From: Cryobacterium breve
GTDB taxonomy: Bacteria; Actinomycetota; Actinomycetes; Actinomycetales; Microbacteriaceae
DNA length: 64,000 bases
NCBI RefSeq assembly: GCF_004402375.1
Contig: NZ_SOGJ01000037.1
Coordinates: 1 to 64,000, forward strand
Direction: 5' to 3'
The notes beneath the pieces were generated by a model. The model ran no database searches, was not told the origin of the DNA, and saw nothing but the letters and a program-made list of their open reading frames with translations. Below are positions 219 through 14,235 of this stretch, piece after piece. The position numbers and the translations under genes are program-made. Numbering within the stretch: position 1 is the first letter of the stretch; each line of letters begins with the position of its first letter.

Positions 219-1694
219 TCAGGCGGTGGGAGGCACGTAGCGGTAGTACTCGATGCCCTGGTCGTAGAAGTCGGGGCCGTTCGCGGTGCCGAGGTGGTCC
301 ACGACGAACTGGTCGTCGGCCGGGGCAGGCACAAGGTCGCCGGGGCTGCCCTCGTGCAGCGCGATGTACTGCGCCTCGGTCAAGTCGACCGGGTCCTGTA
401 GCGCGGTCTCAACGTTGATCCGGGCGGCGGCGGCCTGCCAGCCCGCTGCGACCCGCATCGGCAGAGCCTCGGCGGCATCGCCGCTGCCGTAGCCGAGGGC
501 CAGCCATTCCTGGCCGGCGAGCTCGAGACCATCCGTCAGGCCATGCTTGAGGCCGGATGCGAGCCAGGCCGGCAGGGCCGCCGTGTAGAGGTTGCCCAGG
601 TCTCGCATGGTGTCGGAGCCGAGACCGAGCTTTTCGCTGACCAGGGTGTTCCAGAGCTCCGTGCTGCGCAGGTGCTGGCGCAGCCGGCGGGACAGCGGGA
701 ACACGTCGCCGGTGATCTCGCCGATGTCGGCACCGTTGCCGTGGAAAGGCGAGGGGGCGCAGAGCTCGGCGAGCAAGAGGTCGGCGTCGATTCCGGCATC
801 CGCGCAGTGCGTTCGCAGCTGGTCCCGGCCCGTTTCCTCGTCGGCCGCGAGCGTGAACAGGTAGGCCATCACCCATCCGGTCGCCGGCATCTGGTGGTAC
901 GGGCGGTGCATGAACACGCGGTCGACCTCGGTGAAGTAGTCGAGGGACTTTCCGGGGCGCTTGCCCAGCATGGCGGTCATCGCGTGGTGGGTGGCATCGA
1001 TGTAGCAGCTGGTGGAGTAGCGGCCGTTGAACACGGGCAGGTCTTGCATTTGTCCGTCGTCGCGAGGCGGCTGACCGCGAAAGCGCGCGAACGGTTTGCG
1101 GAAGTCCGCGACGCGGTAGTCGGAGTCACTGCCGGACCCGGCCAGGTTGACTTCCAACAGACGCGCCTCGCTCTCCAGGAGCACGGCGACGGCGCCCGCA
1201 CCCTGGGTGGGCTCACCGCTGCCCCCGCGGGCGTACTCGGCGATGTCGGCGGAGACGACGATGGCCTGGCGGCCCACACCATCCGTCGCCAGATAGCGCA
1301 GGGCGGCCTTGATGCCATAGACGCCGGCGAGGCAGGCCTGCTTGAACTCTGGCACCTCGCAGTCGCGGGCGAGCAGGGGCATGTCGTGGGCACTGAGGGC
1401 GTCGTTGACCATGCCCTTGACGATGACCGCGCCTGCCGAGTTATCACTGCTGGACTCGGTGCCGAGGGCCAAGAGGCCGACCTGACCCGGGTCGATGTCG
1501 TAGTCGCGGATTAGACGCCACACCGCGTTCGCCGCCAGCGTGTAGACGCTCTGGCCAGGGCCGCGCATGCGGAAGCTCCGGCCGACGACGTTCTTGACCT
1601 TCCCCCACGGCTGGTCGTTCCACTCGCACCAGTCTTCAAGCTGCACGCGGTAAGGCGGCACGAACAGGGAGAATCCACTAATTCCAGGCGTCAA
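219..1694 (-). CDS. mvaS: hydroxymethylglutaryl-CoA synthase
   Basis: Condenses acetyl-CoA with acetoacetyl-CoA to HMG-CoA, the first committed step of the mevalonate pathway, in the cytoplasm. The protein (491 residues) has the three expected active-site segments: Glu80 in LALGTESSSD, the acyl-accepting Cys121 in EFKQACLAGVYG, and His263 in VFMHRPYHQM. The start is a TTG preceded by a GAGGG-type ribosome binding site; no better ATG lies before the conserved N-terminus. It is about 100 residues longer than typical bacterial enzymes (around 390), with the extra length mostly after the thiolase-fold core. It is transcribed away from the decarboxylase/kinase/reductase operon, so the shared 190-bp gap probably holds promoters for both. 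Identity is secure from motifs and context; the role of the extra length is unknown. Confidence 0.92.
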   Translation of the reverse strand: MTPGISGFSLFVPPYRVQLEDWCEWNDQPWGKVKNVVGRSFRMRGPGQSVYTLAANAVWRLIRDYDIDPGQVGLLALGTESSSDNSAGAVIVKGMVNDALSAHDMPLLARDCEVPEFKQACLAGVYGIKAALRYLATDGVGRQAIVVSADIAEYARGGSGEPTQGAGAVAVLLESEARLLEVNLAGSGSDSDYRVADFRKPFARFRGQPPRDDGQMQDLPVFNGRYSTSCYIDATHHAMTAMLGKRPGKSLDYFTEVDRVFMHRPYHQMPATGWVMAYLFTLAADEETGRDQLRTHCADAGIDADLLLAELCAPSPFHGNGADIGEITGDVFPLSRRLRQHLRSTELWNTLVSEKLGLGSDTMRDLGNLYTAALPAWLASGLKHGLTDGLELAGQEWLALGYGSGDAAEALPMRVAAGWQAAAARINVETALQDPVDLTEAQYIALHEGSPGDLVPAPADDQFVVDHLGTANGPDFYDQGIEYYRYVPPTA

Positions 1695-1882
1695 CAGTTC
1701 CCTCTTCAGGTTTGGCGTGGTTGTTCACCCACACCGGGTCTCAAACGCACCATTCCATTATCAACGGATCGGTTGGTGAAAGTGGTGACCAGAAGCGGAT
1801 CGTCAGGCGCAACCGACCCGTGGTGCCGATACGGAGCCCCGGGAAGCGACTAAAATCGAGGGAACCCGATCGGAGCACCACT
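1695..1882. promoter_or_regulatory. divergent promoter region between mvaS and mvaD
   Basis: Gap between the divergently transcribed halves of the mevalonate cluster. An in-frame ATG at 1712 would extend mvaD by 57 codons, but the resulting peptide is unlike the family and would occupy the whole promoter region, so I treat this as non-coding. The mvaD start at 1883 is preceded by CGGAGC. I cannot name a specific -35/-10 pair with confidence. Confidence 0.5.
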
Positions 1883-2893
1883 GTGGACCAACCCATCGAT
1901 GGTGGAGCCACCGCCGTGGCCCGCGCACACAGCAACATCGCCCTCGTCAAGTACTGGGGCAAGCGCGACGCCGCCCTGAACACACCCGCGGTCGGCTCGA
2001 TCTCCGTCACGCTCGACGCGCTCTACACCGACACCCGCGTCACCTTCACGCCCGGCCTGGCCGCCGACGAGTTCTGGCTTGCCGGATGCCGAGGCCCGGT
2101 CACGCGCGTCAGCCACGTTCTCGATCTGGTGCGCGGGCATGCCGCCAGCCTGGGTCTCCCCGCCTCGGGGCTGAACGCCATCGTGTCGTCGACGAACAAC
2201 TTCCCGACGGGGGCCGGCCTCGCCTCGTCGGCGTCCGGTTTCGCGGCCCTCGCTGTGGCTGCCACCGGAGCCGCCGGGCTCACCTTGCTGAGCCGGGAGC
2301 TGTCGATTCTGGCCCGCTACGGCTCCGGCTCGGCCGCCCGGTCTATTTTCGGCGGTTTCGCCGAGATGCACGCCGGCACCGCCGCCGACGGCTCGGACGC
2401 CTACGCGGAGGAGTTGCTCGACCAGGGCGCCTGGCCTCTCGCCGTGGTCGTAGCGATTACCGAGCACGGCGAGAAATCGATAAATTCCACAATCGGCATG
2501 AACGAGAGCAAGGCCACCTCGCCGTTCTACCCTGCCTGGCTGGACTCGGCCGACGACGACCTCGCGGAGATGCGTGCGGCCATCCGGGACCGCGATTTCA
2601 CCCGGCTCGGGGAGCTGTCCGAGTACAACTGTCTCAAGCTGCACGCCCTGATGCTCACAACCCGACCCGCGCTGATCTACTGGAACGCGGCCACCGTCGC
2701 CGCCATGCACGCCGTGCGGGCCCTGCGTGCCCAGGGCGTGCCGGCCTACTTCACCATCGACGCCGGCCCGCAGGTCAAGGTGCTCTGCCTGCCGGGTGAC
2801 GCCGCCGCTGTGCAGCAGGCGATGACGCTCGTGCCCGGCGTGCACGAGGCCCGGATCAGCGCGCTCGGCCCGGCCGCCTACCGGCTGGAATGA
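1883..2893 (+). CDS. mvaD: diphosphomevalonate decarboxylase
   Basis: ATP-dependent decarboxylation of mevalonate 5-diphosphate to isopentenyl diphosphate, the last step of the pathway. Using the GTG at 1883 the protein has 336 residues, the normal family size. It shows the N-terminal AHSNIALVKYWGKRD segment (residues 15-29), the GHMP-kinase phosphate loop PTGAGLASSASGF (108-120), the family-specific GSGSAARSIFGG (147-158), and a C-terminal FTIDAGPQVKVL segment. The stop codon overlaps the start of the phosphomevalonate kinase gene (ATGA), so translation is probably coupled. A longer reading from ATG 1712 is rejected because the extension is not family-like. Confidence 0.93.
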   Translation: MDQPIDGGATAVARAHSNIALVKYWGKRDAALNTPAVGSISVTLDALYTDTRVTFTPGLAADEFWLAGCRGPVTRVSHVLDLVRGHAASLGLPASGLNAIVSSTNNFPTGAGLASSASGFAALAVAATGAAGLTLLSRELSILARYGSGSAARSIFGGFAEMHAGTAADGSDAYAEELLDQGAWPLAVVVAITEHGEKSINSTIGMNESKATSPFYPAWLDSADDDLAEMRAAIRDRDFTRLGELSEYNCLKLHALMLTTRPALIYWNAATVAAMHAVRALRAQGVPAYFTIDAGPQVKVLCLPGDAAAVQQAMTLVPGVHEARISALGPAAYRLE

Positions 2894-3963
2894 TGGCGAT
2901 GACGCTTCCGACCATTCCGTCATTGCCGACGATCCGGGCCTCCGCGCCCGGCAAGCTCTTCCTGCTGGGCGAGTATGCCGTGCTCGAGGGCGCACCCGCG
3001 TTGGTCACCGCCGTCGACCGGCGGGTGGAGGTGACGATCGACGAGTCCTCCACAGTCACCTGGCAGGTCAGCGCACCCAATCTCGGTATCCGCAATCTGA
3101 CCTTGGCAACGGACGGCGCCCTTCCGACCGGCCTCACCGCCACGCAGCGTGCCCATCTCCGCGTCTTCGACGAGGTGCGCGCGACGGTGCAGGCCGCGGC
3201 GCTGCAGGCCCGGGGCCGCCCGTTGCTCACCGTACCCCCGCTCGCGATCACCATCGACAGCAGCGCACTCTCCCGGGGTGACCACAAGCTGGGCCTCGGC
3301 TCCAGCGCGGCCACCGCCGCCGCCTTGACCGACGCCCTGGCCCGCGCCCTGGGCCTGACCCTCGACCGGCGCGAGCTCTTTCGGCTGGCCCACGCCGCCC
3401 ACCGGAACGCGCAGAACGGTGCCGGCAGTGGCGGCGACGTCGCCGCGAGCGTGCACGGTGGGCTGATCCGCTACACCCCGGACGTCGCAGTCGTGCCGCT
3501 CCGCTGGCCGGAGGAACTCCGCATCTCAGCCGTCGTCACCGGCGAGGGCGCACTGACGACCCGCTTGGTGGGCCGCGTGGGTGACTACGCCGCCGAGAGC
3601 CCTGCCCGGCATCGGGCCGACCTCGATCGGCTTGCGCACCTGGCCGAGCAGGCCGAGACAGCGCTGGCCAGCCCGGCCGCCTTCCTGCGCTTGGCCTCCG
3701 ACTACTTCGCCGCCCTGTCCCAGCTCGATGACCACGCCCGGGCCGGCATTGTGAGTGAGCGGCACCGTGAACTGCACGCCCTCGCCCGGCGCGAAGGCAG
3801 CGTCTTCAAGACCAGCGGCGCCGGCGGTGGCGACGTCGGCCTGGCTTTCAGCTACGCCGGAGAACCCACCGAGCGCCTCGCCGGGGCATTCGCCCGAGCC
3901 GGCGCCGCCATCGTCCCGCTCGGCTTTTTCGCCGCCGGCCTACAGGGAGGCACCACGTCATGA
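2890..3963 (+). CDS. mvaK2: phosphomevalonate kinase
   Basis: GHMP-family kinase that phosphorylates mevalonate 5-phosphate. The protein (357 residues) has an N-terminal SAPGKLFLLGEYAVLEG motif (about 18-34), the ATP loop LGLGSSAATAAA (134-145) and the C-terminal SGAGGGDVGLAF motif (about 311-322). The length and the loop fit phosphomevalonate kinase rather than mevalonate kinase, and the mevalonate kinase is accounted for by the next gene. It overlaps mvaD by four bases at its start and the reductase-kinase fusion by four bases at its end, so the three genes form one tight operon. Position in the pathway is inferred from family features plus the complement of neighbours. Confidence 0.88.
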   Translation: MMAMTLPTIPSLPTIRASAPGKLFLLGEYAVLEGAPALVTAVDRRVEVTIDESSTVTWQVSAPNLGIRNLTLATDGALPTGLTATQRAHLRVFDEVRATVQAAALQARGRPLLTVPPLAITIDSSALSRGDHKLGLGSSAATAAALTDALARALGLTLDRRELFRLAHAAHRNAQNGAGSGGDVAASVHGGLIRYTPDVAVVPLRWPEELRISAVVTGEGALTTRLVGRVGDYAAESPARHRADLDRLAHLAEQAETALASPAAFLRLASDYFAALSQLDDHARAGIVSERHRELHALARREGSVFKTSGAGGGDVGLAFSYAGEPTERLAGAFARAGAAIVPLGFFAAGLQGGTTS

Positions 3964-6341
3964 GCCGGTCCCGGATCCCCCGCTTCTACCAGCTGACGGT
4001 CAGCGAGCGCATCGCACTCCTGCAGCAACGAGGTGTTTTGACCGAGGATGCCGCGGCGCACCTCGCCGGCGGAACATCCGCCCTCGACGTGGCGGCGGCC
4101 GACCGGTTGATCGAGAACGTGATCGGCGTGTTCTCGATGCCGATGGGGCTCGGCCTGAATTTCCAGATCAACGGCCGGGACTACCTGGTGCCGATGGTGG
4201 TCGAAGAGCCGTCCATCGTCGCCGCGGTCAGTTCCACGGCCCGGCTGGTGCGCCAGGCCGGAGGGTTCACGAGCGTCGCCGAGGATCCGCTGCTGATCGG
4301 CCAGATCCAGGTCGTCGACCTTATCGACCCCGATCGCGCCCGAACTGACCTTCTCGCGCGCGGCGACGAGCTCGTCGCTCTGGCCAACAGCGGGCATCCG
4401 AACATGGCGGCGCGCGGCGGCGGGGCCCGCGGCATCGAGGTCTTCCTGCGCGGGGCGACCACGCAGAACGGCGAGCTGCTCGTCGTGCACCTAGTGGTAG
4501 ACACCCGCGATGCCATGGGCGCCAACCTGGTCAACTCGATGTGCGAGCGGCTCGCCCCCCTGGTCGAGGAGATCAGCGGCGGCCGCGTGTTCCTGCGAAT
4601 CCTCTCCAACCTCACCGACCGGGCCCTGGTGCGCGCCCGTGCCGTGATCCCGCACGCGCTGCTCGAGACCGCCGATTTCCCCGGCGCACGCGTGCGCGAC
4701 GGTATCGTGCTCGCGAACGAGTTCGCCGCCATGGATCCCTACCGGGCCACCACGCACAACAAGGGCATTATGAACGGGATCGACGCCGTTGCCCTGGCCA
4801 CCGGCAACGACTGGAGGGCGATCGAGGCGGCCGCCCACGCCTACGCCGGACGGGGTGACGGGTACGGCCCGCTCACCACCTGGAGCGTGAACGGATCCGG
4901 CGATCTGGTGGGCGAACTGACCCTTCCGTTGAAGGTCGGGACTGTCGGCGGCCAGGTGGAGTCGAATCCGGCCGTGCGACTCGCGCACACGATCCTTGGG
5001 GTGTCCGGGGCGCCCGAGCTGGCCGAGGTGATGGCCGCCGTGGGGCTGGCCCAGAACCTCGCCGCGCTCAAGGCCCTGTCCACCAACGGCATCCAGCACG
5101 GCCATATGCGTCTGCACGCGCGGGCCGTCGCCGCGGCCGCGGGGGCCAGCGGAGCTCGGTTCGAGGAGGTCGTCGAGAGGCTCATCGCCGACGGCGAGAT
5201 CAAGGTGTGGAAGGCGCGCCAGATCATGCAGTCCCTCGACGGGGGCAGCGACGGCGACCCGGCCAGTGATTCGGCCGCCCCGGATGCCGGGCCTCGCGCC
5301 GCGGCATCCGTCGCGGCGCCCCTGCCACACCCCGCGCCCACGACCTCGGCCACCCTCACGCCACCACCCGCCACCACGCCCGGCGCTGCCCTCGCCCCGA
5401 GCGCCCCCGGAGCGGACGCCCACCTCGGCTACGGCAAGATCATCCTGATGGGCGAGCATTCCGTCGTCTACGGCTACCACGCGATCGCCGCCCCGATCGG
5501 GCTTTCCGTGCGCGCGCAGGTCACCCGCCATGCATCGATCCGCAAACCGGTCATCGCCGACTGGGACATCGACGGCTCGGTGCGCGAACCCATCCGCGCG
5601 GACCTCTCGCACCGGGTCGCGGCGCTGATTGCGTCCCGGCTCGGCGTCACCGCCGCGGGCGTGCGGGTTGACGTGTTCTCGCACCTGCCGCGGGCCAGCG
5701 GCCTGGGCGCCTCCGCCGCGTTCGCAGTGGCGGTGATCCGCGCCGTCGCCGACAGCTTCCAGCTCACGATCAGCGACGCCGAGGTCTCGGGCCTCGCCTT
5801 CGAATGTGAACAGATCGTGCATGGAACCCCGTCGGGCATTGACAACACCGTCGCCACCTTCGGCCGGTCGGTTCTGTTCCAGAAAACGGATGCCCCGGGC
5901 GGTCACACGATCCGCGACATCTTCACTCCCCACCCGATCCCCATCGTGATTGGGCTGTCCGGGGTTGAATCGCTCACCGCCCAGACCGTCGGCCTCGTGC
6001 GCAGTGCCTGGCAGCGCAACCCGGCGCGGTACGAGGGCATCTTCAGCCAGATCGACGGCCTGGTCTTGGCCGGGGTAGATGCGCTGCGCCGCGGCGACAT
6101 CGCCGAGCTCGGCGAGCTGATGAACATCAACCAGGGTCTGCTCAACGCACTGCAGGTGTCGAGTCCGGAGATCGAATCGCTCGTGGCGATCGCTCGGCGG
6201 GCCGGCGCCCTCGGGGCGAAGCTGACCGGCGGTGGAGGCGGGGGCGCAATGATCGCCATCGCCGAGCCCGGCGGAACCGAGCCGATCATGGCCGCAATGC
6301 GCAGCGCCGGGTACACCACGTATCTCACCGAAATTCGCTAG
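3960..6341 (+). CDS. mvaA-mvk: HMG-CoA reductase / mevalonate kinase fusion protein
   Basis: One continuous 793-residue reading frame joins two pathway enzymes. Residues 1 to about 426 are a class II HMG-CoA reductase: VVEEPSIVAA near 80 with the catalytic Glu, DAMGANLVN near 184, TTHNKGIMNG near 264 with the catalytic Lys, and GIQHGHMRLHAR near 378 with the catalytic His. Residues about 427-487 are a linker rich in Ala, Pro, Thr and Ser. Residues about 488-793 are a complete mevalonate kinase: GKIILMGEHSVVYGYHA, LPRASGLGASAAF near 576, SGIDNTVATFG near 625 and the C-terminal KLTGGGGGGAM near 753. It would turn HMG-CoA into mevalonate 5-phosphate through two consecutive reactions. No stop or internal start with a good ribosome binding site is evident at the junction. 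It is the last gene of the operon. Confidence 0.93.
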   Translation: MSRSRIPRFYQLTVSERIALLQQRGVLTEDAAAHLAGGTSALDVAAADRLIENVIGVFSMPMGLGLNFQINGRDYLVPMVVEEPSIVAAVSSTARLVRQAGGFTSVAEDPLLIGQIQVVDLIDPDRARTDLLARGDELVALANSGHPNMAARGGGARGIEVFLRGATTQNGELLVVHLVVDTRDAMGANLVNSMCERLAPLVEEISGGRVFLRILSNLTDRALVRARAVIPHALLETADFPGARVRDGIVLANEFAAMDPYRATTHNKGIMNGIDAVALATGNDWRAIEAAAHAYAGRGDGYGPLTTWSVNGSGDLVGELTLPLKVGTVGGQVESNPAVRLAHTILGVSGAPELAEVMAAVGLAQNLAALKALSTNGIQHGHMRLHARAVAAAAGASGARFEEVVERLIADGEIKVWKARQIMQSLDGGSDGDPASDSAAPDAGPRAAASVAAPLPHPAPTTSATLTPPPATTPGAALAPSAPGADAHLGYGKIILMGEHSVVYGYHAIAAPIGLSVRAQVTRHASIRKPVIADWDIDGSVREPIRADLSHRVAALIASRLGVTAAGVRVDVFSHLPRASGLGASAAFAVAVIRAVADSFQLTISDAEVSGLAFECEQIVHGTPSGIDNTVATFGRSVLFQKTDAPGGHTIRDIFTPHPIPIVIGLSGVESLTAQTVGLVRSAWQRNPARYEGIFSQIDGLVLAGVDALRRGDIAELGELMNINQGLLNALQVSSPEIESLVAIARRAGALGAKLTGGGGGGAMIAIAEPGGTEPIMAAMRSAGYTTYLTEIR

Positions 6342-6830: not shown

Positions 6831-8129
6831 CTACTCGTAGCGAAGCGACTCGATCGGGTCCTGCCGCGCTGCGCGCAGAGCCGGGATCGTTCCGGCCAGG
6901 AATGCCAGCCCCATCACCACGAGGATGATCGTGGCCAGTGCGGCGGGATCGAAAGCCACCAGGGTGAGCCCGGGCAGGTCGGCCAGGAGCGTGTCGGCCA
7001 ACACCGCGTTGGCGCCCATCCCCGCGAGCATGCCGACGCCGACACCGAGTGCGCTTCCCATCAGGCCGATGAACACGGCTTCCAGGCTGAACAGGCCGAA
7101 GATCTTGCCGCCGCCGAGGCCCATCGCCTTCATCAGGCCGATCTCCCGGGTGCGTTCCTGCACGCTCATCAACAGCGTGTTGACGATGCCGAAACCGGCC
7201 GCCAGCAGTGCGATCACGGCGAAGGCGTTCAATACCAGCACGATGCCGTCGATGACGGCCTTGAACGAGCCGATCTGGTCTTCCACCGTGGTGCCGGTGT
7301 AGCCCAGGTCGGACAGGTCGGACTTGAGAGTGGTCAGGTCCGCCTCGGCGCCGGTCGGATCGAACCGGACCACAGCCTGGGCATAGCTGTCCTTGCTGCT
7401 CTCCGACAGTCCACCGCTTTGGGCGTCGTAGAGGGCCTCGGTGAGCACCTTGTTGGCCGTGAACGCCGTCGATCCCGCCAAGCCTTCCTCGGAGACGCCG
7501 ACGATGGTGGCCCTCAGCTCGGACTGGGTGCCCGTGACGTCGGTGATGGCGAGGGTGAGCATGGCACCCAGGGCGGCGGCGTCATCCGTGAAGCCCAGGG
7601 GCGTGACGAACGAGACCGGCACGGCAACCTCGTAGTCGCTGCTCGCCGCGTCGGGCTCGGCGCCCGCAGCGAGGTCCAGCTCCATGCCGGGGATGAAGCT
7701 TCCCACATTGGCCTCGTAGGCGGTGCCGTCGGCGACCTGCACGTAATCCGGGCTCACGCTCAGCTGCGGTTGCACGGAAAGAACGCCGTCAATGGCGCCG
7801 ATCGAGTCGAGGTCGTCCGTGGTCAGGGCGATGAGGCTGAACCCGGGAGCACCGGGTGGCGAGTTCGGGGAATCGACCGCCACCGCGGTGGGATCGTACT
7901 CGACCGGACCATCCGTGCCGTCTTCAGCCGCCTTGGTGACAGTGATGACGTCGTCGGCGCCGATCGAGGCCACCGTCGTGTCGATGTACTGGTTGATGCC
8001 GGTGCCGACCCCGCTGGTGAGGGTGAGGGTGAAGGCGCCGATGAAGATCGAGAGCACCGTGAGGATGGTGCGGGTCTTGCTGCGCAGGCTGTTTTTAACG
8101 GCCGAGCGGATCAGGTCGAAGGCATTCAT
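6831..8129 (-). CDS. ABC transporter permease, MacB/FtsX family
   Basis: Membrane subunit of an ABC exporter. The 432-residue protein has the family plan: one N-terminal membrane segment after the NSLRSKTRTILTV motif (about 14-40), a large extracytoplasmic domain (about 45-290), then three membrane segments with the FtsX signature around VQERTREIGLMKAMG (about 325-340). It ends in RQDPIESLRYE, typical of MacB-type permeases. A strong AGGAGGTG ribosome binding site precedes ATG 8129, and this start overlaps the stop of the ATPase gene by four bases. The pair probably exports a peptide, lipid or antibiotic; the substrate cannot be read from sequence. The divergent two-component system suggests stress or envelope-responsive control. 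Confidence 0.88.
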   Translation of the reverse strand: MNAFDLIRSAVKNSLRSKTRTILTVLSIFIGAFTLTLTSGVGTGINQYIDTTVASIGADDVITVTKAAEDGTDGPVEYDPTAVAVDSPNSPPGAPGFSLIALTTDDLDSIGAIDGVLSVQPQLSVSPDYVQVADGTAYEANVGSFIPGMELDLAAGAEPDAASSDYEVAVPVSFVTPLGFTDDAAALGAMLTLAITDVTGTQSELRATIVGVSEEGLAGSTAFTANKVLTEALYDAQSGGLSESSKDSYAQAVVRFDPTGAEADLTTLKSDLSDLGYTGTTVEDQIGSFKAVIDGIVLVLNAFAVIALLAAGFGIVNTLLMSVQERTREIGLMKAMGLGGGKIFGLFSLEAVFIGLMGSALGVGVGMLAGMGANAVLADTLLADLPGLTLVAFDPAALATIILVVMGLAFLAGTIPALRAARQDPIESLRYE

Positions 8130-8866
8130 GCGCGCACCTCCTGAGCGGTCGCGATCGTAGCAGCGGTCGCGGCCGGCACCGCGTGCAGGCTGTCGGTGAT
8201 CAGGCCGTCGCGGATGTACACCCGCCGGTCGCAGCGCGCCGCGAGGTCTTCGTCGTGCGTCACGATGATCAGGGTGATGCCCTTTTCCTCTTGCAGCGAG
8301 AACAGGATGTCCTCGACCACCTTGCCGGTGGCGGAGTCGAGGTTGCCGGTGGGTTCGTCGGCGAAGATGACGCTGGGGTTGTTCACCAGCGCCCGCGCGA
8401 TCACCACCCGCTGCTTCTGGCCGCCGGACAGGTCGGTGGCCTTGTTGCGGGCCTTGTCGGCCAGGTCCAGCTGCTCGAGCACCGCCATCCCGCGCCGCTT
8501 GCGTTCGGCGCCGCCGATGCCGGCAATTTGCAGCGGCAGCGTCACGTTGTCGAGCACGCTCGTGTTGGGCGTGAGGAAGAACTGCTGGAACACGAAACCG
8601 AAGGTCTCGTTGCGGGTCTGGTTGACGACCCGGCCGGAGAGCCCGCTGGCGTCGCGGCCGCTGAGCTCGACGGAACCGGTGGTGGGGTTGTCGAGCAGCG
8701 CGAGCAGGTGCATGAGGGTGGACTTGCCTGACCCGCTCTTGCCCACGATGGCGACGGATTCACCCTGCTGGATGTCGACGGAGACGCCCTTGAGGGCGTC
8801 GAACCGGGTGGCGCCACGGCCATACGACTTGTGGATGTCGCGGGCGGCGAGAACGGGGATGGACAT
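8126..8866 (-). CDS. ABC transporter ATP-binding protein, MacB/LolD type
   Basis: Nucleotide-binding subunit paired with the downstream FtsX-like permease. From ATG 8866, preceded by AGGAG, the protein has 246 residues with Walker A GKSGSGKST (about 38-46), Q-loop FGFVFQQF, signature LSGGQKQR, Walker B VIFADEPTGNLDS and the H-loop VTHDED. The E-P-T-G-N-L-D sequence after Walker B is characteristic of the LolD/MacB/FtsE group. A longer frame reaching 9025 is open but would erase the promoter region and lacks family similarity. It overlaps the permease by four bases, so the two are translationally coupled. Confidence 0.92.
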   Translation of the reverse strand: MSIPVLAARDIHKSYGRGATRFDALKGVSVDIQQGESVAIVGKSGSGKSTLMHLLALLDNPTTGSVELSGRDASGLSGRVVNQTRNETFGFVFQQFFLTPNTSVLDNVTLPLQIAGIGGAERKRRGMAVLEQLDLADKARNKATDLSGGQKQRVVIARALVNNPSVIFADEPTGNLDSATGKVVEDILFSLQEEKGITLIIVTHDEDLAARCDRRVYIRDGLITDSLHAVPAATAATIATAQEVRA

Positions 8867-8897
8867 GGTTGAGGTCTCCTGGTTATTGCGTGAGGGA

Positions 8898-8935
8898 GGT
8901 TGCGTGACGGTGGTTGCGTGACGGTGGTTAGCGTG
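8898..8935. repeat. 14-bp tandem repeat upstream of the ABC exporter genes
   Basis: GGTTGCGTGACGGT occurs twice exactly (8898-8911, 8912-8925) and is followed by a partial copy (8926-8935) and preceded by a degenerate one (8881-8897). It lies just upstream of the exporter ATPase start, in the 310-bp gap (8867-9176) shared with the divergent histidine kinase, which otherwise holds no gene. It may bind a regulator such as the adjacent response regulator, or be a slippage product. Confidence 0.8.
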
Positions 8936-9176
8936 CCGGCCGGACCGGCTCACGTCGAACCGGTCCAGCGGCACACCTCCAGTGTCGCCAGACACGCGGC
9001 GCAGGTCGTCCTCCCCTCGTGGCAACCTGGCCGTACCGCGCTGGGCCCGGTTTGACCGGCTGTGGCGTCCGGCCTACCACCACCGCAGTACGCCGGGCAC
9101 CCACGCCCGCGGGAGGACAGCGTGCGGCTCGGTTGGCAGAATGGTGTCGAGTCCGATCCACGGGCGGGAGGACAAC

Positions 9177-10472
9177 ATGCTGATCCAGCGCGACCACGTC
9201 TCGGAGGGCGACCGCAACTTCACCCCGCTGTCCCGGCTGCCCGTTTGGCTGCGCGACACCATCCTGGTGGTGTTCGTGCTCGGTCCGAGCTTCGCCACCC
9301 ACGACTTCGGAGGCGCCGCGACGTCGAGCGTCGGTGCAGCATTGCTGGTGCTCGTCTCGGCCGGTTCGGTCCTGCTGCGTCAGCGCGCGCCGCTCGTCGG
9401 GGCATCCGTTGCGGTTGTCGCCTGCATGCTCGGCCTCGCCATCGACGGGTCCATTGTCACCCAACTATTAGCGGTGCTGATCGGCGTTTTCGGTATGGCC
9501 CGCTGGTTGAGGCGGGGCACCTCGCTGTTCTTCTCCGGCGTGACGGTGATCCTGCTGTCGATAGCCACGGTGTCCTTCCTGGACACCCCGTGGAACGACA
9601 TCCGCACACTCTTGCAGCTGGCGGCTTTCGTGGGTTTCGCCACCGCCGCCGGCGACGCGAATCGCTCGCACGCTGCGTACATCCGGTCGATCACCGACCG
9701 GGCCCGCCATGCCGAGGAAACCAAGGAGTCCGAGGCGCTGCGCCGCGTGGCGGAGGAGCGCCTGCGTATCGCCCGCGACCTGCACGACCTGCTCGCCCAT
9801 CAGATCGCGGTGATCAATCTGCACTCCAGCGTCGCTTCGCAGGCACTCCCTGACCGACCGGACGACGCCGAGAAGTCGTTGGCGACCATCCGTGAGGCAG
9901 CCCGCGGCGTGCTGGGTGAGATCGGCAGCCTGCTCAACGTGCTGCGAGCAGCGGATGCCAGTGGCCCCGGCGCCGGTACGGCGCCCGTCGCCGGGCTCGC
10001 CGACCTCGAAGCGTTGCTCACCGACTTCGAGCGCAGCGGGCTGAACGTGGAGCACCGGGTCGTTGGCACGCCTCGGTCGCTTCCCGGCGCCGTCGACATG
10101 GTGGCCTTCCGCGTGGTGCAGGAGGCCCTGACCAACGCCCACAAGCACGGCGCCGACCACTCCGCACTGCTGCACCTTGACTACCAGGCGGCGGGGGTGG
10201 AAATCGCGGTGACCAACACGGTGGCCATGACCGGGCGCGCCGGATCGGCGGGCGCGGCGAGCCGAACGCCGGTTGGTTCCGGCCACGGTCTGCTCGGCGC
10301 ACGTGAACGCGTGGGATCGGTCGCCGGCCGCCTGACCGCGGCCAGGGGGCCTGGCCCGGTCTTCCGGTTCACCGCCTGGTTGCCGACCGACGGAGGCACT
10401 GCCACCGATCCGAATTCAGCTTCGGGGCCGGCCGCGGCCGTTGCCGCACCCCGCACGAAAGGTGCTTCATGA
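9177..10472 (+). CDS. sensor histidine kinase, NarL/DesK-type (HisKA_3)
   Basis: Membrane sensor kinase of a two-component system. From ATG 9177, preceded by GGGAGGA at 5-nt spacing, it has 431 residues: about four to six hydrophobic segments between residues 25 and 160, a coiled dimerisation helix, the HisKA_3 phosphoacceptor motif RIARDLHDLLAHQ with His near 202, and a C-terminal ATPase domain with ALTNAHKHG near 317 and the GHGLLGARERV glycine-rich segment. There is no evident extracellular sensor domain, so the stimulus is probably sensed within or at the membrane, as in cell-envelope stress kinases. Its stop overlaps the response regulator start by four bases. An upstream ATG at 9141 is in frame but less well spaced. 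Confidence 0.9.
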   Translation: MLIQRDHVSEGDRNFTPLSRLPVWLRDTILVVFVLGPSFATHDFGGAATSSVGAALLVLVSAGSVLLRQRAPLVGASVAVVACMLGLAIDGSIVTQLLAVLIGVFGMARWLRRGTSLFFSGVTVILLSIATVSFLDTPWNDIRTLLQLAAFVGFATAAGDANRSHAAYIRSITDRARHAEETKESEALRRVAEERLRIARDLHDLLAHQIAVINLHSSVASQALPDRPDDAEKSLATIREAARGVLGEIGSLLNVLRAADASGPGAGTAPVAGLADLEALLTDFERSGLNVEHRVVGTPRSLPGAVDMVAFRVVQEALTNAHKHGADHSALLHLDYQAAGVEIAVTNTVAMTGRAGSAGAASRTPVGSGHGLLGARERVGSVAGRLTAARGPGPVFRFTAWLPTDGGTATDPNSASGPAAAVAAPRTKGAS

Positions 10473-11173
10473 TCTCCGTGGTTCTCGCCGACGACCAGTC
10501 CCTGATTCGCACGGCCGTGGCCGAACTGGTGTCGCACGAAGAGGGCTTCACCGTGGCCGGTCAGGCCGGCAACGGGCGCGATGTCGTGGCCCTGGTGCGG
10601 GAACTGCGCCCCGATATCGTGCTGATGGACATCCGGATGCCGGTGATGGACGGCATCCAGGCGACCGCTGCCATCTGCGCCGACCCTACCCTGGCCGGTA
10701 CTCGGATCATCGTGCTGACCACTTTTGAAGAGGACGAGTACGTGCTGCAGGCGCTGCGAGCCGGAGCCAGCGGATTCGTTGGAAAGGGCACGGAAGCCCA
10801 CGACCTGATGACCGCCATCCGCACCGTGCACAGCGGTGACGCGCTGCTCTCGCCACGGGCCACCCGAGCGCTCATCGACCGGTACACGGCCCCGGCCGAA
10901 CGCCCCTCCCTCGTGGCACCGGCCGAGCTGGCGCTTCTTACCGACCGGGAGCGGGAAATTCTTCTGCTCGTGGCCCGCGGCCTTGCCAACACCATGATCG
11001 CCGATGAACTCGTGATCTCCCCGCACACCGCCAAGACCCATGTGAACCGCATGATGACCAAGCTGGGCGCACACGATCGCGCTCAGCTGGTGATCATCGC
11101 CTACGAATCGGGCCTGCTCGTGCCCGGTGGCAGCGGGATGCTGCGCGGCCCGCTCGACAGGGGGCACCTGTAG
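10469..11173 (+). CDS. response regulator, NarL/FixJ family
   Basis: DNA-binding partner of the preceding kinase. The 234-residue protein has an N-terminal receiver domain with acidic residues Asp8/Asp9, the phosphorylated Asp54 in VLMDIRMPVMDG and Lys106, followed by a LuxR-type helix-turn-helix (about 165-225) with LTDREREILLLVARGL and the recognition segment SPHTAKTHVNRMM. Start and kinase stop overlap (ATGA). The divergent exporter operon is the obvious candidate target, by analogy with many actinobacterial kinase/regulator/ABC sets; this is inference. The gene converges with the PotC-like gene downstream. Confidence 0.92.
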   Translation: MISVVLADDQSLIRTAVAELVSHEEGFTVAGQAGNGRDVVALVRELRPDIVLMDIRMPVMDGIQATAAICADPTLAGTRIIVLTTFEEDEYVLQALRAGASGFVGKGTEAHDLMTAIRTVHSGDALLSPRATRALIDRYTAPAERPSLVAPAELALLTDREREILLLVARGLANTMIADELVISPHTAKTHVNRMMTKLGAHDRAQLVIIAYESGLLVPGGSGMLRGPLDRGHL

Positions 11174-11237
11174 CTGGGCGCTAGCGAGCCGCGAGCGCTA
11201 CCGAATGTCCCTGTGTGTGAAACCGCGATCCGAACGG

Positions 11238-12047
11238 TCAGTCCTCCTCTTCAGCCCTTGAGAGCCGCTGCGACACGTAGACGGGGATGAACGAGGCAAG
11301 GATGATGACGGTCGCGACGACATTGACGACGCTGGCCTCGTTGGGACGGGCCATCTGGTTCATGATCCACAACGGCAACGTGTCCACTCCCGGCGGTGCC
11401 GTGAAGATGGTCACCACGACCTCGTCGAAGCTGAGGGCGAAAGCCAGCAGGCCCCCGGCCACGAACGCGGTGCGGAATTGGGGAAAGGTGATGAGCTTGA
11501 AGGTCTGCCAGAGCCCGGCCCCGAGGTCCATCGAGGCCTCCTGCAGGTTCGGGCTCATGCGGCGCAGCCGGGCGAGCACGTTGTTGAAGACCATGACCAT
11601 GCAGAAGGTGGCGTGGGCCACGATCATTCCGAAGTACCCGATCTGAATACCGATCGGTTCGAGGATGTTGTTGTAGGTGTTGCTCAGGGCGACACCCGTG
11701 ACGATTCCGGGCAGTGCGATCGGGAGCACGATGAGCAGGTTGACGGTCTGCTTGCCGAAGAAGCTGTACCGCTGCAGCGCGAACGCGGTGAGCGTGCCGA
11801 GCACCAACGCCAGCACGGTGGCGCCGAGGCCCACGACGATCGAATTGAGCAGGGCGGCACGAATGGGCTCGCTGGTGAAGGCGACGACCCACCAATCGAC
11901 CGAGAAGTCCGTCACCGGCCAGGTGGCGATCCGGGCGGCGTTGAACGAGTTGAGCACGACGAGGGACAGGGGAATGTACATGAACACGAGCACGACGCCG
12001 ACGATGGTGCCAAGGCCGATCTTGGCGCTGCGGGTGAGTCTCAGCAT
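11238..12047 (-). CDS. potC: ABC transporter permease, PotC-like
   Basis: Second inner-membrane permease of a spermidine/putrescine-type importer. The 269-residue protein has six hydrophobic segments and the cytoplasmic EAA-type loop around LQEASMDLGAGLWQTFKLITFP (near residues 160-180), which docks on the ATPase. The short N-terminus and the LSLVVLNSFN segment fit PotC rather than PotB. It lies nine bases after the PotB gene and is last in the potA-potD-potB-potC order. Substrate could be a polyamine, GABA or a related amine or opine; family membership alone does not decide. Confidence 0.88.
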   Translation of the reverse strand: MLRLTRSAKIGLGTIVGVVLVFMYIPLSLVVLNSFNAARIATWPVTDFSVDWWVVAFTSEPIRAALLNSIVVGLGATVLALVLGTLTAFALQRYSFFGKQTVNLLIVLPIALPGIVTGVALSNTYNNILEPIGIQIGYFGMIVAHATFCMVMVFNNVLARLRRMSPNLQEASMDLGAGLWQTFKLITFPQFRTAFVAGGLLAFALSFDEVVVTIFTAPPGVDTLPLWIMNQMARPNEASVVNVVATVIILASFIPVYVSQRLSRAEEED

Positions 12048-12056
12048 GGCGGGCTC

Positions 12057-12971
12057 CTACATCCGGTCCAGTGCGCCGGTCTTGCGAACGGCGAACAGGT
12101 AGACCAGCACGAAAACGATGGGAACGACCGAGAATGCGGCCGCGATGGGCGGGTTGAGGTTGATGTTCGATGCGATCACGCTGCCGATCATCTGGGTGGA
12201 CCCGCCCACGAATTTGGCGGCGAGGTAGTCGCCGAGGCTGAGCGAGAAGGTGAAGATCGAACCGGCGATGAGGGCGGGCTTGAGCAGCGGCACGACGACG
12301 GTGCGGATGGTGGTCCAGCTGCGCGCTCCCAAGTCGGCCGACGCGTCGAAGAGGTTGGCCGGGATCTGGCGCACTGCGGTGTAGACGGGCAGGGCCATGT
12401 AGGGGAACCAGAGGTAGGTGAGGGTGAGGACCACGGTCGTGTAGCTGAATCCGGGACCGCTGAGGCCGAGGGGTTCGAGGGCTGAGTTGAAGAAGCCGTT
12501 CTCGGTGAACGTGATGCGCATGGCGAGAATCTTCACCAGGTAGCCCGCCCAGAGAGGCAGGGTGATGGCGACGGCCAGGAAGGCACGCAACCAGGGCGAC
12601 GCCACCTTGGCCATGAAGATGCCCAGCGGGATGGAGAACATGACACTGAGGAGGGTCACCAGCAATGCAATCGACAGTGTGCGCAGCGAGGTCGAGAGGT
12701 AGGCCGGGTTTTCGACCAGCCGTACGAAGTTGTCGAGGGTGAAACCTGGGATGACCTTGGAGGTGAATGGGTCGGTGCGCCAGAAAGCGGTGACCAGGAG
12801 CATCACGAGGGAGAAGATGTAGACGCCGACGAGCCAGGTCAGGGGCAACGCCAGCAGCCCGAGCAGGCGCAGCCGCGGACTGCGATGCAGCCGGGTCGAG
12901 AGGGGCTTTCTGCCGGCGGGCTGGACCCGGCCCTGGCCGGGTGTCGTGACGCGGGGCACTGTGCTGGTCAC
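12057..12971 (-). CDS. potB: ABC transporter permease, PotB-like
   Basis: First permease of the polyamine-type importer. The 304-residue protein begins with a GTG and an N-terminal cytoplasmic tail rich in Arg and Pro, then six membrane segments; the EAA loop reads NLFDASADLGARSWTTIRTVVVP (near 215-235). A first extracytoplasmic loop with FVRLVENPAYLSTSLRTL is typical of PotB/PotH proteins. It is separated from potD by a strong hairpin and from potC by nine bases. Confidence 0.88.
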   Translation of the reverse strand: MTSTVPRVTTPGQGRVQPAGRKPLSTRLHRSPRLRLLGLLALPLTWLVGVYIFSLVMLLVTAFWRTDPFTSKVIPGFTLDNFVRLVENPAYLSTSLRTLSIALLVTLLSVMFSIPLGIFMAKVASPWLRAFLAVAITLPLWAGYLVKILAMRITFTENGFFNSALEPLGLSGPGFSYTTVVLTLTYLWFPYMALPVYTAVRQIPANLFDASADLGARSWTTIRTVVVPLLKPALIAGSIFTFSLSLGDYLAAKFVGGSTQMIGSVIASNINLNPPIAAAFSVVPIVFVLVYLFAVRKTGALDRM

Positions 12972-13007
12972 GGTGATTCCTTAGGTGCGTGCGGATGCGG
13001 ATGGGGG

Positions 13008-13037
13008 TCGGTGGGGCCCTGGTCTGGGCCCCACCGA
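13008..13037 (-). terminator. intercistronic hairpin between potD and potB
   Basis: A perfect 12-bp stem (TCGGTGGGGCCC at 13008-13019 with 13026-13037) and 6-nt loop starts seven bases after the potD stop. It has no T-tract. In binding-protein operons such hairpins commonly protect the upstream mRNA or end part of the transcripts, so more binding protein than permease is made. Confidence 0.75.
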
Positions 13038-13044
13038 AAGGTGA

Positions 13045-14235
13045 CTAGCTCTTGACGGTGAGCCAGGCATCCGTCCACTGCTGGAAGTTGGTGCAGGTGA
13101 CGTCGGTACGTCCGTCGATGCACTGCTCGAGCGGAGTGGTCCAGAACCAGACGTTCTCGAAGTACTCCTCGTCGGTGGCGTGGAAGTACTCGCAGTGCGC
13201 TGCGGCCTCATCGCTGGTCTCGCAGAACGCACCGTTGGCCGGGGCCATGCCGAAGCCCATCGCGATCGCGCCGTTGACCTCGGCGGAGCTGGTGTAGTCC
13301 ATCCACAGGTAGCCGCAGTTGGGGTTCTTCGCCTCGGCCGAAATCATCCAGGCGTCCGCCCAGCCGGTCGAGCCCTCTTCGGGCAGCACGCTCTTGAACT
13401 TTTCGTCCTCGGTGAGCTTGCGCAGGATCTCCCACGAGGTACCCACGACCGATGTTCCACCGGCGTACGAGGTGATCTGGGCGACCGGGTCGGCCCAGTA
13501 CTCGCTGACGATTCCGTTCTGCGTCTTCAGCAGCTCGATGGCCGCGTCAAGCTGCTTCTGGTCGAGTGCGTACGGGTTGGTGATACCTAGATCGGGTTCG
13601 TGCGTCATCAGGTACACGGCGGCGTCGGCGATGTAGATCGGAGCGTCATAGGCGATGATCTCGCCGGCGTAGGGGCTGTCTTCCTCCCATACGACATCCC
13701 AGCTCGTGGGCGCTTCGGTGACGATTTCGCTGTTGTACTGCAGGATGTTCGCACCGCGGCCGATCGGAACGCCATAGCTCTTGCCATTGATCGTGTCGTA
13801 GATCTGGCCCTGCATTCCCTTGACCGTGTCGTCGCCGAAGTTGGGGATCAAGTCGATGTTGATCGGCGCGACGTCGCCGCCGGCGATCAGGCGCAGGCTC
13901 GCATCGCCGGAGGCCGATACGAGGTCGTAGTCTCCGGTGCGCATAAGCGTGACCATCTCGTCGCTCGTACCTGCGACACGGCGGTTGACGACGCATCCGG
14001 TTTCTGCGGTGAACTGGTCGGACCATGCCGGCTCGACGAATCCGCTCCACGCGACGATGTTCACTTCGCCCTCAGCCTTATCCAGCTTGTCCATCATGGG
14101 TACGTCAGGAACGTCGATACTGAGGCCGCCGGCAGACGTGTCGCCGTTCTCCGTGTCACCGGTGCCGCTGCAGCCGACGAGCACCAGCGTTGCCGCTGCC
14201 ATCATCGCGGGAAGCAGCATGTACTTCTTCTTCAT
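13045..14235 (-). CDS. potD: extracellular solute-binding lipoprotein, PotD-like
   Basis: Substrate-capturing subunit of the importer. The 396-residue protein starts with a lipoprotein signal peptide (KKK basic start, hydrophobic core, lipobox LVLVGC with Cys22), then a Ser/Thr/Gly-rich tether and a periplasmic-type spermidine/putrescine-binding fold, recognisable from VNIVAWSGFVEPAW, MRTGDYDLVSASGD and the conserved GVPIGRGANILQYN segments. It is anchored to the outside of the cytoplasmic membrane. It lies between the ATPase gene (54 bases upstream) and a strong hairpin that precedes the permease genes. The Cys-rich C-terminal part (CNYLW, CETSDEAAAHC, CIDGRTDVTC) may form disulfides. Confidence 0.9.
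   Translation of the reverse strand: MKKKYMLLPAMMAAATLVLVGCSGTGDTENGDTSAGGLSIDVPDVPMMDKLDKAEGEVNIVAWSGFVEPAWSDQFTAETGCVVNRRVAGTSDEMVTLMRTGDYDLVSASGDASLRLIAGGDVAPINIDLIPNFGDDTVKGMQGQIYDTINGKSYGVPIGRGANILQYNSEIVTEAPTSWDVVWEEDSPYAGEIIAYDAPIYIADAAVYLMTHEPDLGITNPYALDQKQLDAAIELLKTQNGIVSEYWADPVAQITSYAGGTSVVGTSWEILRKLTEDEKFKSVLPEEGSTGWADAWMISAEAKNPNCGYLWMDYTSSAEVNGAIAMGFGMAPANGAFCETSDEAAAHCEYFHATDEEYFENVWFWTTPLEQCIDGRTDVTCTNFQQWTDAWLTVKS

Follow-up and report, generated by a model that had tools for sequence, protein, structure and literature searches.

The window analysed here, 64,000 nucleotides of Cryobacterium breve (assembly GCF_004402375.1, contig NZ_SOGJ01000037.1, positions 1–64,000, forward strand), carries a gene in which a class II 3-hydroxy-3-methylglutaryl-coenzyme A (HMG-CoA) reductase and a mevalonate kinase share one reading frame. 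Sequence comparison makes it likely that the product of this gene is a bifunctional protein acting in the classical mevalonate pathway, in which a kinase is tethered to a biosynthetic reductase, and that the fusion arose once and was later transferred between bacteria. The reaction of HMG-CoA reductase is commonly seen as the step that controls the mevalonate pathway, and mevalonate kinase acts on the product of that reaction.

Domain architecture

The frame starts at an ATG (3960), ends in a TAG stop (6339–6341) and contains no internal stop, which confirms the single 793-codon frame reported in a first-pass annotation of this DNA. Coordinates of the gene, its domains and its neighbours are collected in Table 1. 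Pfam places HMG-CoA_red (PF00368) at residues 14–387 with 357 bits, GHMP_kinases_N at 552–634 and GHMP_kinases_C at 707–784, all above cut-off. The NCBIfam scan matched two separate models, TIGR00532 for class II reductases (residues 1–387, 418.3 bits against a cut-off of 259.95) and TIGR00549 for mevalonate kinase (residues 492–766, 241.5 bits against 163.05), and found no single model spanning both halves. The best sequence relatives of solved structure are the Pseudomonas mevalonii reductase (1qax), over residues 4–422, and the 2hfs mevalonate kinase, over residues 487–771. Fold comparison of the predicted structure with Foldseek recovers the same two folds, with a TM score by target of 0.89 for the reductase half against the P. 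mevalonii enzyme (PmHMGR).

These matches, together with the catalytic residues described below, uphold the annotated domain limits (residues 1–426 and 488–793) and the completeness of both domains. The linker between them is rich in Ala, Pro and Thr as annotated, but we count 61 residues (427–487) rather than 60. Judged from family membership, the annotation was also right that the two enzymes would catalyse consecutive reactions, from HMG-CoA to mevalonate and on to mevalonate 5-phosphate. No thiolase domain was found in the Pfam and NCBIfam scans of the fusion protein at an E-value of 0.001, and the reductase match begins at residue 1. The genome holds one full-length copy of the fusion; its only other match is short (35%) and covers residues 708–782.

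Integrity of the reading frame

The first-pass annotation had pointed to 5230–5430 as the place where a frameshift or assembly error might hide a stop and restart. A hidden stop or frameshift in this interval was rejected. The fusion lies in one open frame in 19 of 57 Cryobacterium genomes, as a single match in 12 of them and as two matches in the same frame in 7; the other 38 gave no such match. The frame was verified individually for the 18 fused genomes besides the window's own, all of which read through the join, as do many loci from other phyla. Because the 19 species share the frame despite very different linker lengths, an assembly slip is ruled out, and the relatives thus exclude assembly error. 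Among the five closest linkers all pairwise gap runs are multiples of three (12/12), a count that supports the frame only weakly because the pieces had been cut in frame.

An internal translation start within the window's linker was rejected as well: none of the codons ATG, GTG and TTG occurs in frame within residues 427–487. The closest ATG codons of the frame lie at residue 423 and at residue 497, the latter inside the kinase and beyond its conserved GK. Some relatives' linkers do hold ATG, GTG or TTG codons, so the absence of linker start codons cannot be claimed for the whole fused group. These codons, and a purine-rich stretch preceding the ATG at residue 423, would fit an artefact, that is, an assembly or frameshift error or two proteins made through an internal start. 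Set against them are the start-free linker of the window and a single frame that recurs in the genus and also in 36 of the fetched loci that carry the label of another phylum or none, and we consider such an artefact highly improbable.

Active sites and cofactor helix

In the reductase domain, E83, K268, D284 and H382 are present and identical in 66 of 66 aligned fused sequences; the 66-row counts given here and below contain a few near-identical copies. We take these residues to be the counterparts of the catalytic E83, K267, D283 and H381 of the P. mevalonii enzyme. The kinase domain retains GK (492–493), GEH (498–500), G581, G583, S585, E617, D628 and T673, identical in 64 of 64 fused sequences. 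K493, GEH, S585, E617, D628 and T673 are also the same in all 17 separate kinases (17/17), and the motif residues are presumably those of the active site.

The cofactor helix of the window's reductase reads H146-P-N-M-A-A-R152. Within the fused group, H146 and R152 are each present in 65 of 66 sequences. Separate reductases have D146 in 27 of 44 cases and R152 in 12 of 44. At the third position of the helix the window has N, and 61 of the 66 fused sequences have N, K or R. For class II reductases, the motif Dx(V/L)xxxL has been associated with NADH and (H/Y)xSxxxR with NADPH (accessible part of PMC13370337). In the R. pomeroyi reductase, replacement of the cofactor-deciding Asp, D154, by Lys led to NADPH activity (accessible part of PMC12292504); D154 appears to be equivalent to position 146 here. 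We predict that the fused reductases prefer NADPH: H146 and R152 suggest this use, which in turn would point to the biosynthetic direction.

Linker and flap

With domain limits obtained by extrapolation, the linkers of the fused set span 7–87 residues. Their sequence is not conserved and differs even among close relatives. In the predicted model, the local confidence score pLDDT falls below 50 at residues 430–486, indicative of a disordered linker. Predicted disorder and free length variation together favour a loose tether over a rigid channel or fixed tunnel between the two domains. A Cryobacterium bin (L008:6001–8451; the same in L093) has a 76-residue linker with tandem five-residue GRESL repeats, a hint that linkers lengthen by repeat slippage.

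In class II enzymes, the C-terminal flap closes over the active site (accessible part of PMC10070635). The predicted model of the fusion has helices at residues 378–393, 399–411 and 416–428, corresponding to the three-helix flap (about 378–428), and the linker is attached at the flap's end. Four flap residues distinguish fused from separate reductases: F401 (64/66 versus 0/44), G412 (61/66 versus 8/44), K415 (64/66 versus 3/44) and W417 (61/66 versus 0/44). From their pattern of conservation, they may form a docking face for the kinase or merely reflect packing inside the flap.

Distribution

Relatives were taken as the best 80 of 590 confirmed matches in one-per-species genomes, ranked on the whole protein. 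With this ranking, close unfused reductases should appear; kinase-only members would not, outside the family and phylum samples. Among these 80, 41 loci are fused, 9 have adjacent separate genes (8 Bacillaceae and one Myxococcaceae bin) and 30 have only a reductase in the fetched stretch. In two of the loci counted as fused (L038 and L043), the contig stops within the kinase. The fused loci among the 80 are labelled Pseudomonadota, Calditrichota, Acidobacteriota, Planctomycetota and Actinomycetota, and one is titled only 'bacterium'. Most are metagenome bins, the named strains being three Cryobacterium species and Dyella monticola; since bins make up most of the non-actinobacterial loci, organism labels may be wrong.

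An even sample of the family (199 genomes) contains 7 fused loci; besides that of the window, six occur in four other genera. Its other genomes have a stand-alone kinase of 34–40% identity or a stand-alone reductase of 49–50%. A sample of the phylum (198 genomes) contains 3, the window's own and two from one genus of another class. The distribution of the fusion is therefore sporadic. The first-pass annotation had contrasted the fusion with the separate genes of actinobacterial clusters. The stand-alone kinases of the family sample bear out this contrast, but the picture of an oddity among actinobacterial clusters is incomplete, as the fusion also occurs under four other phylum labels. Searching related genomes for proteins with both domains, as the annotation had suggested, mapped the fusion in the genus, the family, the phylum and beyond.

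Carriage on plasmids was considered and rejected: 37 plasmid records match, none with one place covering 80% of the query. One fused Cryobacterium genome (G006, contig C28) also has a second class II reductase-like frame, 48% identical and with no kinase. A Salinisphaera-labelled bin (L005:6001–8304) has 70% and 65% identity in the two domains and neighbours that look by eye like glycogen-metabolism genes; it is a possible donor lineage, or a mislabelled bin.

Phylogeny

Trees of the two domains were built after removing near-identical copies, the contig-cut L038 and L043, and 15 of 44 separate reductases to thin the set. The fused sequences form one side of a branch with support of 100/100 both in the careful kinase tree (62 fused, 16 separate) and in the careful reductase tree (62 fused, 29 separate), and the split is present in 100% of 200 bootstrap trees for each domain. 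The careful kinase tree leaves out the long-branched unfused kinase of the Myxococcaceae bin (L037:3467–5752), whose reductase and kinase lie in adjacent separate frames; this kinase has an extremely long branch and unsettles the tree. Given the one-sided split in both domains, a single fusion event is the simplest reading, and the fusion apparently had one origin. Such trees may also be compatible with an ancestor that was already fused and whose descendants in part split the gene again.

In a quick tree of both domains (57 rows, with five close Cryobacterium rows left out), Actinomycetota fall in three places: the Microbacteriaceae; L012, a metagenome bin; and L133 with L134. Forcing Actinomycetota into one clade is rejected by the approximately unbiased (AU) test (p = 3.6e-6). 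Cryobacterium itself is split within the Microbacteriaceae, and the nearest non-actinobacterial row to that family is the Salinisphaera-labelled bin. From the three places, the fusion seems to have entered Actinomycetota more than once. Horizontal transfer of the operon between phyla would be the natural explanation of these trees.

Operon and pathway context

Table 1. Coordinates of the fusion gene, its domains and neighbouring mevalonate-pathway genes in the window
Feature	Position	Strand	Basis and remarks
HMG-CoA reductase/mevalonate kinase fusion gene	3960..6341	+	793 codons; read as one frame in 18 further Cryobacterium genomes too
Class II HMG-CoA reductase domain	3960..5237	+	residues 1–426; Pfam, NCBIfam and alignments to 1qax and 5wpj
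Linker	5238..5420	+	residues 427–487; rich in Ala, Pro and Thr; disorder predicted; in-frame ATG, GTG and TTG absent
Mevalonate kinase (GHMP kinase) domain	5421..6338	+	residues 488–793; Pfam, NCBIfam, solved-structure match, fold comparison
Probable phosphomevalonate kinase	2890..3963	+	overlaps fusion start by 4 bases (ATGA); GHMP_kinases_N above cut-off
Diphosphomevalonate decarboxylase	1712..2893	+	TIGR01240, 275.5 bits, above cut-off of 171.35, from residue 70
Probable HMG-CoA synthase	219..1694	-	divergent from operon; both Pfam domains above cut-off

The decarboxylase gene, whose true start is probably downstream of the listed TTG, overlaps the phosphomevalonate kinase gene by 4 bases. 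Such four-base stop-start overlaps recur in the Microbacteriaceae. The phosphomevalonate kinase scores 138.1 bits against TIGR01220 (cut-off 165.7) and the synthase 139.8 bits against TIGR01835 (cut-off 360.35); both names are given as probable because these scores fall below the NCBIfam cut-offs. Across 62 fused loci, the genes found upstream in the same orientation are a decarboxylase in 55 and a phosphomevalonate kinase in 57, in two of these (L007 and L009) at a distance of more than 1.3 kb. A synthase lies within the fetched stretch in 13 of the 62, many of these stretches being too short to judge.

IspG, the only gene of the methylerythritol phosphate (MEP) pathway tested, is present in all 57 genomes of the genus, versus 19 of 57 for the fusion. 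A universal IspG, with the fusion in about a third of the sample, suggests that the mevalonate operon is an added pathway. By this comparison it is most likely an extra isoprenoid route beside the MEP pathway in some Cryobacterium species. In Dyella monticola (L010:455–10114), the operon is flanked by HpnI/HpnJ and, at its other end, by isopentenyl diphosphate (IPP) isomerase and HpnH. This hopanoid-gene setting points to a biosynthetic operon there; it probably feeds hopanoids, suggesting a dedicated pathway. In Cryobacterium psychrotolerans (L006), IPP isomerase is just downstream on the other strand. In the window's own genome, IPP isomerase is encoded on a different contig, next to a homologue of polyprenyl diphosphate synthase, and from this neighbourhood our guess is that the operon feeds carotenoids.

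Promoter and terminator scans on either side of the operon returned nothing, which is weakly informative for a high-GC actinobacterium. Beside the operon, positions 6831–14235 encode a MacB/FtsX-type permease (by Pfam) and, as read by eye from translations of the open reading frames, an ABC ATPase, a two-component pair and a polyamine-type ABC transporter, with no pathway link seen.

Interpretation

In the mechanism that we propose, the class II reductase at the N terminus would convert HMG-CoA to mevalonate, with NADPH as the most likely cofactor, and the GHMP kinase at the C terminus would then use ATP to phosphorylate the mevalonate. The kinase would hang from the C-terminal flap of the reductase by the disordered linker, as a tethered neighbour outside any rigid tunnel. 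The gain would be a fixed 1:1 enzyme dose and the prompt local removal of mevalonate that might otherwise be lost or re-oxidised. The ratio follows from having both enzymes on one chain; its benefit is our suggestion. Once formed, the fusion would travel between phyla with the decarboxylase and phosphomevalonate kinase genes. The single frame, the two complete domains with their intact catalytic residues, the conserved neighbouring genes and the trees are direct results of the analysis. From them we infer the two enzymatic activities, the use of NADPH, the benefit of the fusion, the tether model, the products that are fed and the completeness of either pathway.

Several points weigh against this interpretation. 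Reductase and kinase activity are predicted, from conserved residues and family membership, for all members of the group. The synthase and the phosphomevalonate kinase score below their NCBIfam cut-offs. The upstream pair is incomplete or missing in seven of the 62 fused loci: two (L014 and L016) are cut by a contig end, four gammaproteobacterial bins (L021, L027, L029 and L030) have neither gene in about 6 kb of upstream sequence, and in L032 the decarboxylase is downstream on the other strand. At the third position of the cofactor helix, most fused sequences carry N, K or R instead of the S of the published NADPH motif, which by alignment is a group-specific variant. The quick kinase tree that includes L037 recovers the same split at a support of only 31. 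Finally, the predicted model (pTM 0.55) leaves the relative placement of the domains undefined, which is compatible with docking.

Docking is the premise of channelling, in which mevalonate would pass directly from reductase to kinase through a defined arrangement. The fused-group-specific F401, G412, K415 and W417 at the flap end could form a docking face beside the linker, but these residues may do no more than pack within the flap, the linkers are conserved in neither length nor sequence, and the model has no defined placement; we think channelling unlikely. A related idea, which we would rate slightly lower still, is that the kinase, tethered to the mobile flap that releases mevalonate, is coupled to the reductase cycle, with contact at F401/G412/K415/W417 handing over mevalonate or sensing its release. 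If true, such a kinetically coupled unit would be, to our knowledge, the first natural HMG-CoA reductase–mevalonate kinase machine, and one found across five phyla.

The join could instead have no special catalytic role, adjacent genes having merged, fixed their co-expression and been carried along with a transferable operon. This would suit the four-base overlaps that join the other genes of the window's operon and recur in the Microbacteriaceae, the touching or overlapping reductase and kinase frames at eight Bacillaceae loci, and linkers that differ even between close relatives. The careful trees show no unfused member inside the fused group, though a split takes one mutation. This argument is tempered by the sampling, which may have overlooked kinase-only members outside the family sample, and we regard a neutral join as a real but lesser possibility. 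Far more doubtful is a degradative role, in which the reductase half would work in mevalonate degradation as in P. mevalonii. That enzyme is the closest solved structure by sequence and the name of the NCBIfam model contains 'degradative', but the NADPH-type helix residues, the kinase on the same chain and the biosynthetic neighbour genes all oppose it. A tethered, biosynthetic bifunctional enzyme remains our preferred reading.

Comparison with known systems

Among the papers listed in the literature searches, none describes an HMG-CoA reductase–mevalonate kinase fusion in its title or the opening of its abstract, a scope that covers the top of the longer result lists and excludes most subscription papers. 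As a kind, natural fusion of mevalonate-pathway enzymes is already known: Enterococcus MvaE is likewise a natural bifunctional protein that includes a class II reductase (accessible part of PMC10070635). In MvaE, the partner is the upstream thiolase, placed N-terminally (same source), whereas here it is the downstream kinase, placed on the C-terminal flap.

The P. mevalonii reductase (1qax) shares the class II fold, about 50% identity and the catalytic residues, but it is stand-alone, NADH-dependent (accessible part of PMC13370337) and has Asp at position 146 where the fused group has His. The Streptococcus pneumoniae reductase (5wpj) shares a cofactor helix without Asp (Y..S...R) and the RGGGAR stretch, and it prefers NADPH (accessible part of PMC13370337). 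It differs in being stand-alone and in lacking the F401/G412/K415/W417 set of the fused flap. For the kinase domain, the best solved matches by sequence and fold are the enzymes of Leishmania major (2hfs) and Methanosarcina mazei (6mde), both of which stand alone.

A parallel in gene arrangement comes from Bacillaceae operons (L044–L046 and L048–L052), where an adjacent reductase and kinase are followed by decarboxylase and phosphomevalonate kinase. These operons differ in having two frames that touch or overlap, a distant kinase (29–33% identity) and another gene order, with the pair at the operon head.

Against this background, the pairing of reductase with kinase, its apparent single origin and its spread look new. 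A fusion that apparently arose once, occurs under five phylum labels and varies freely in its linker provides a natural experiment on whether flux changes when consecutive enzymes are joined. Pathway engineers would gain a module in a single gene, probably NADPH-using, that has apparently moved between phyla in nature, and the fusion can serve as a marker with which to follow how the bacterial mevalonate pathway has been transferred.

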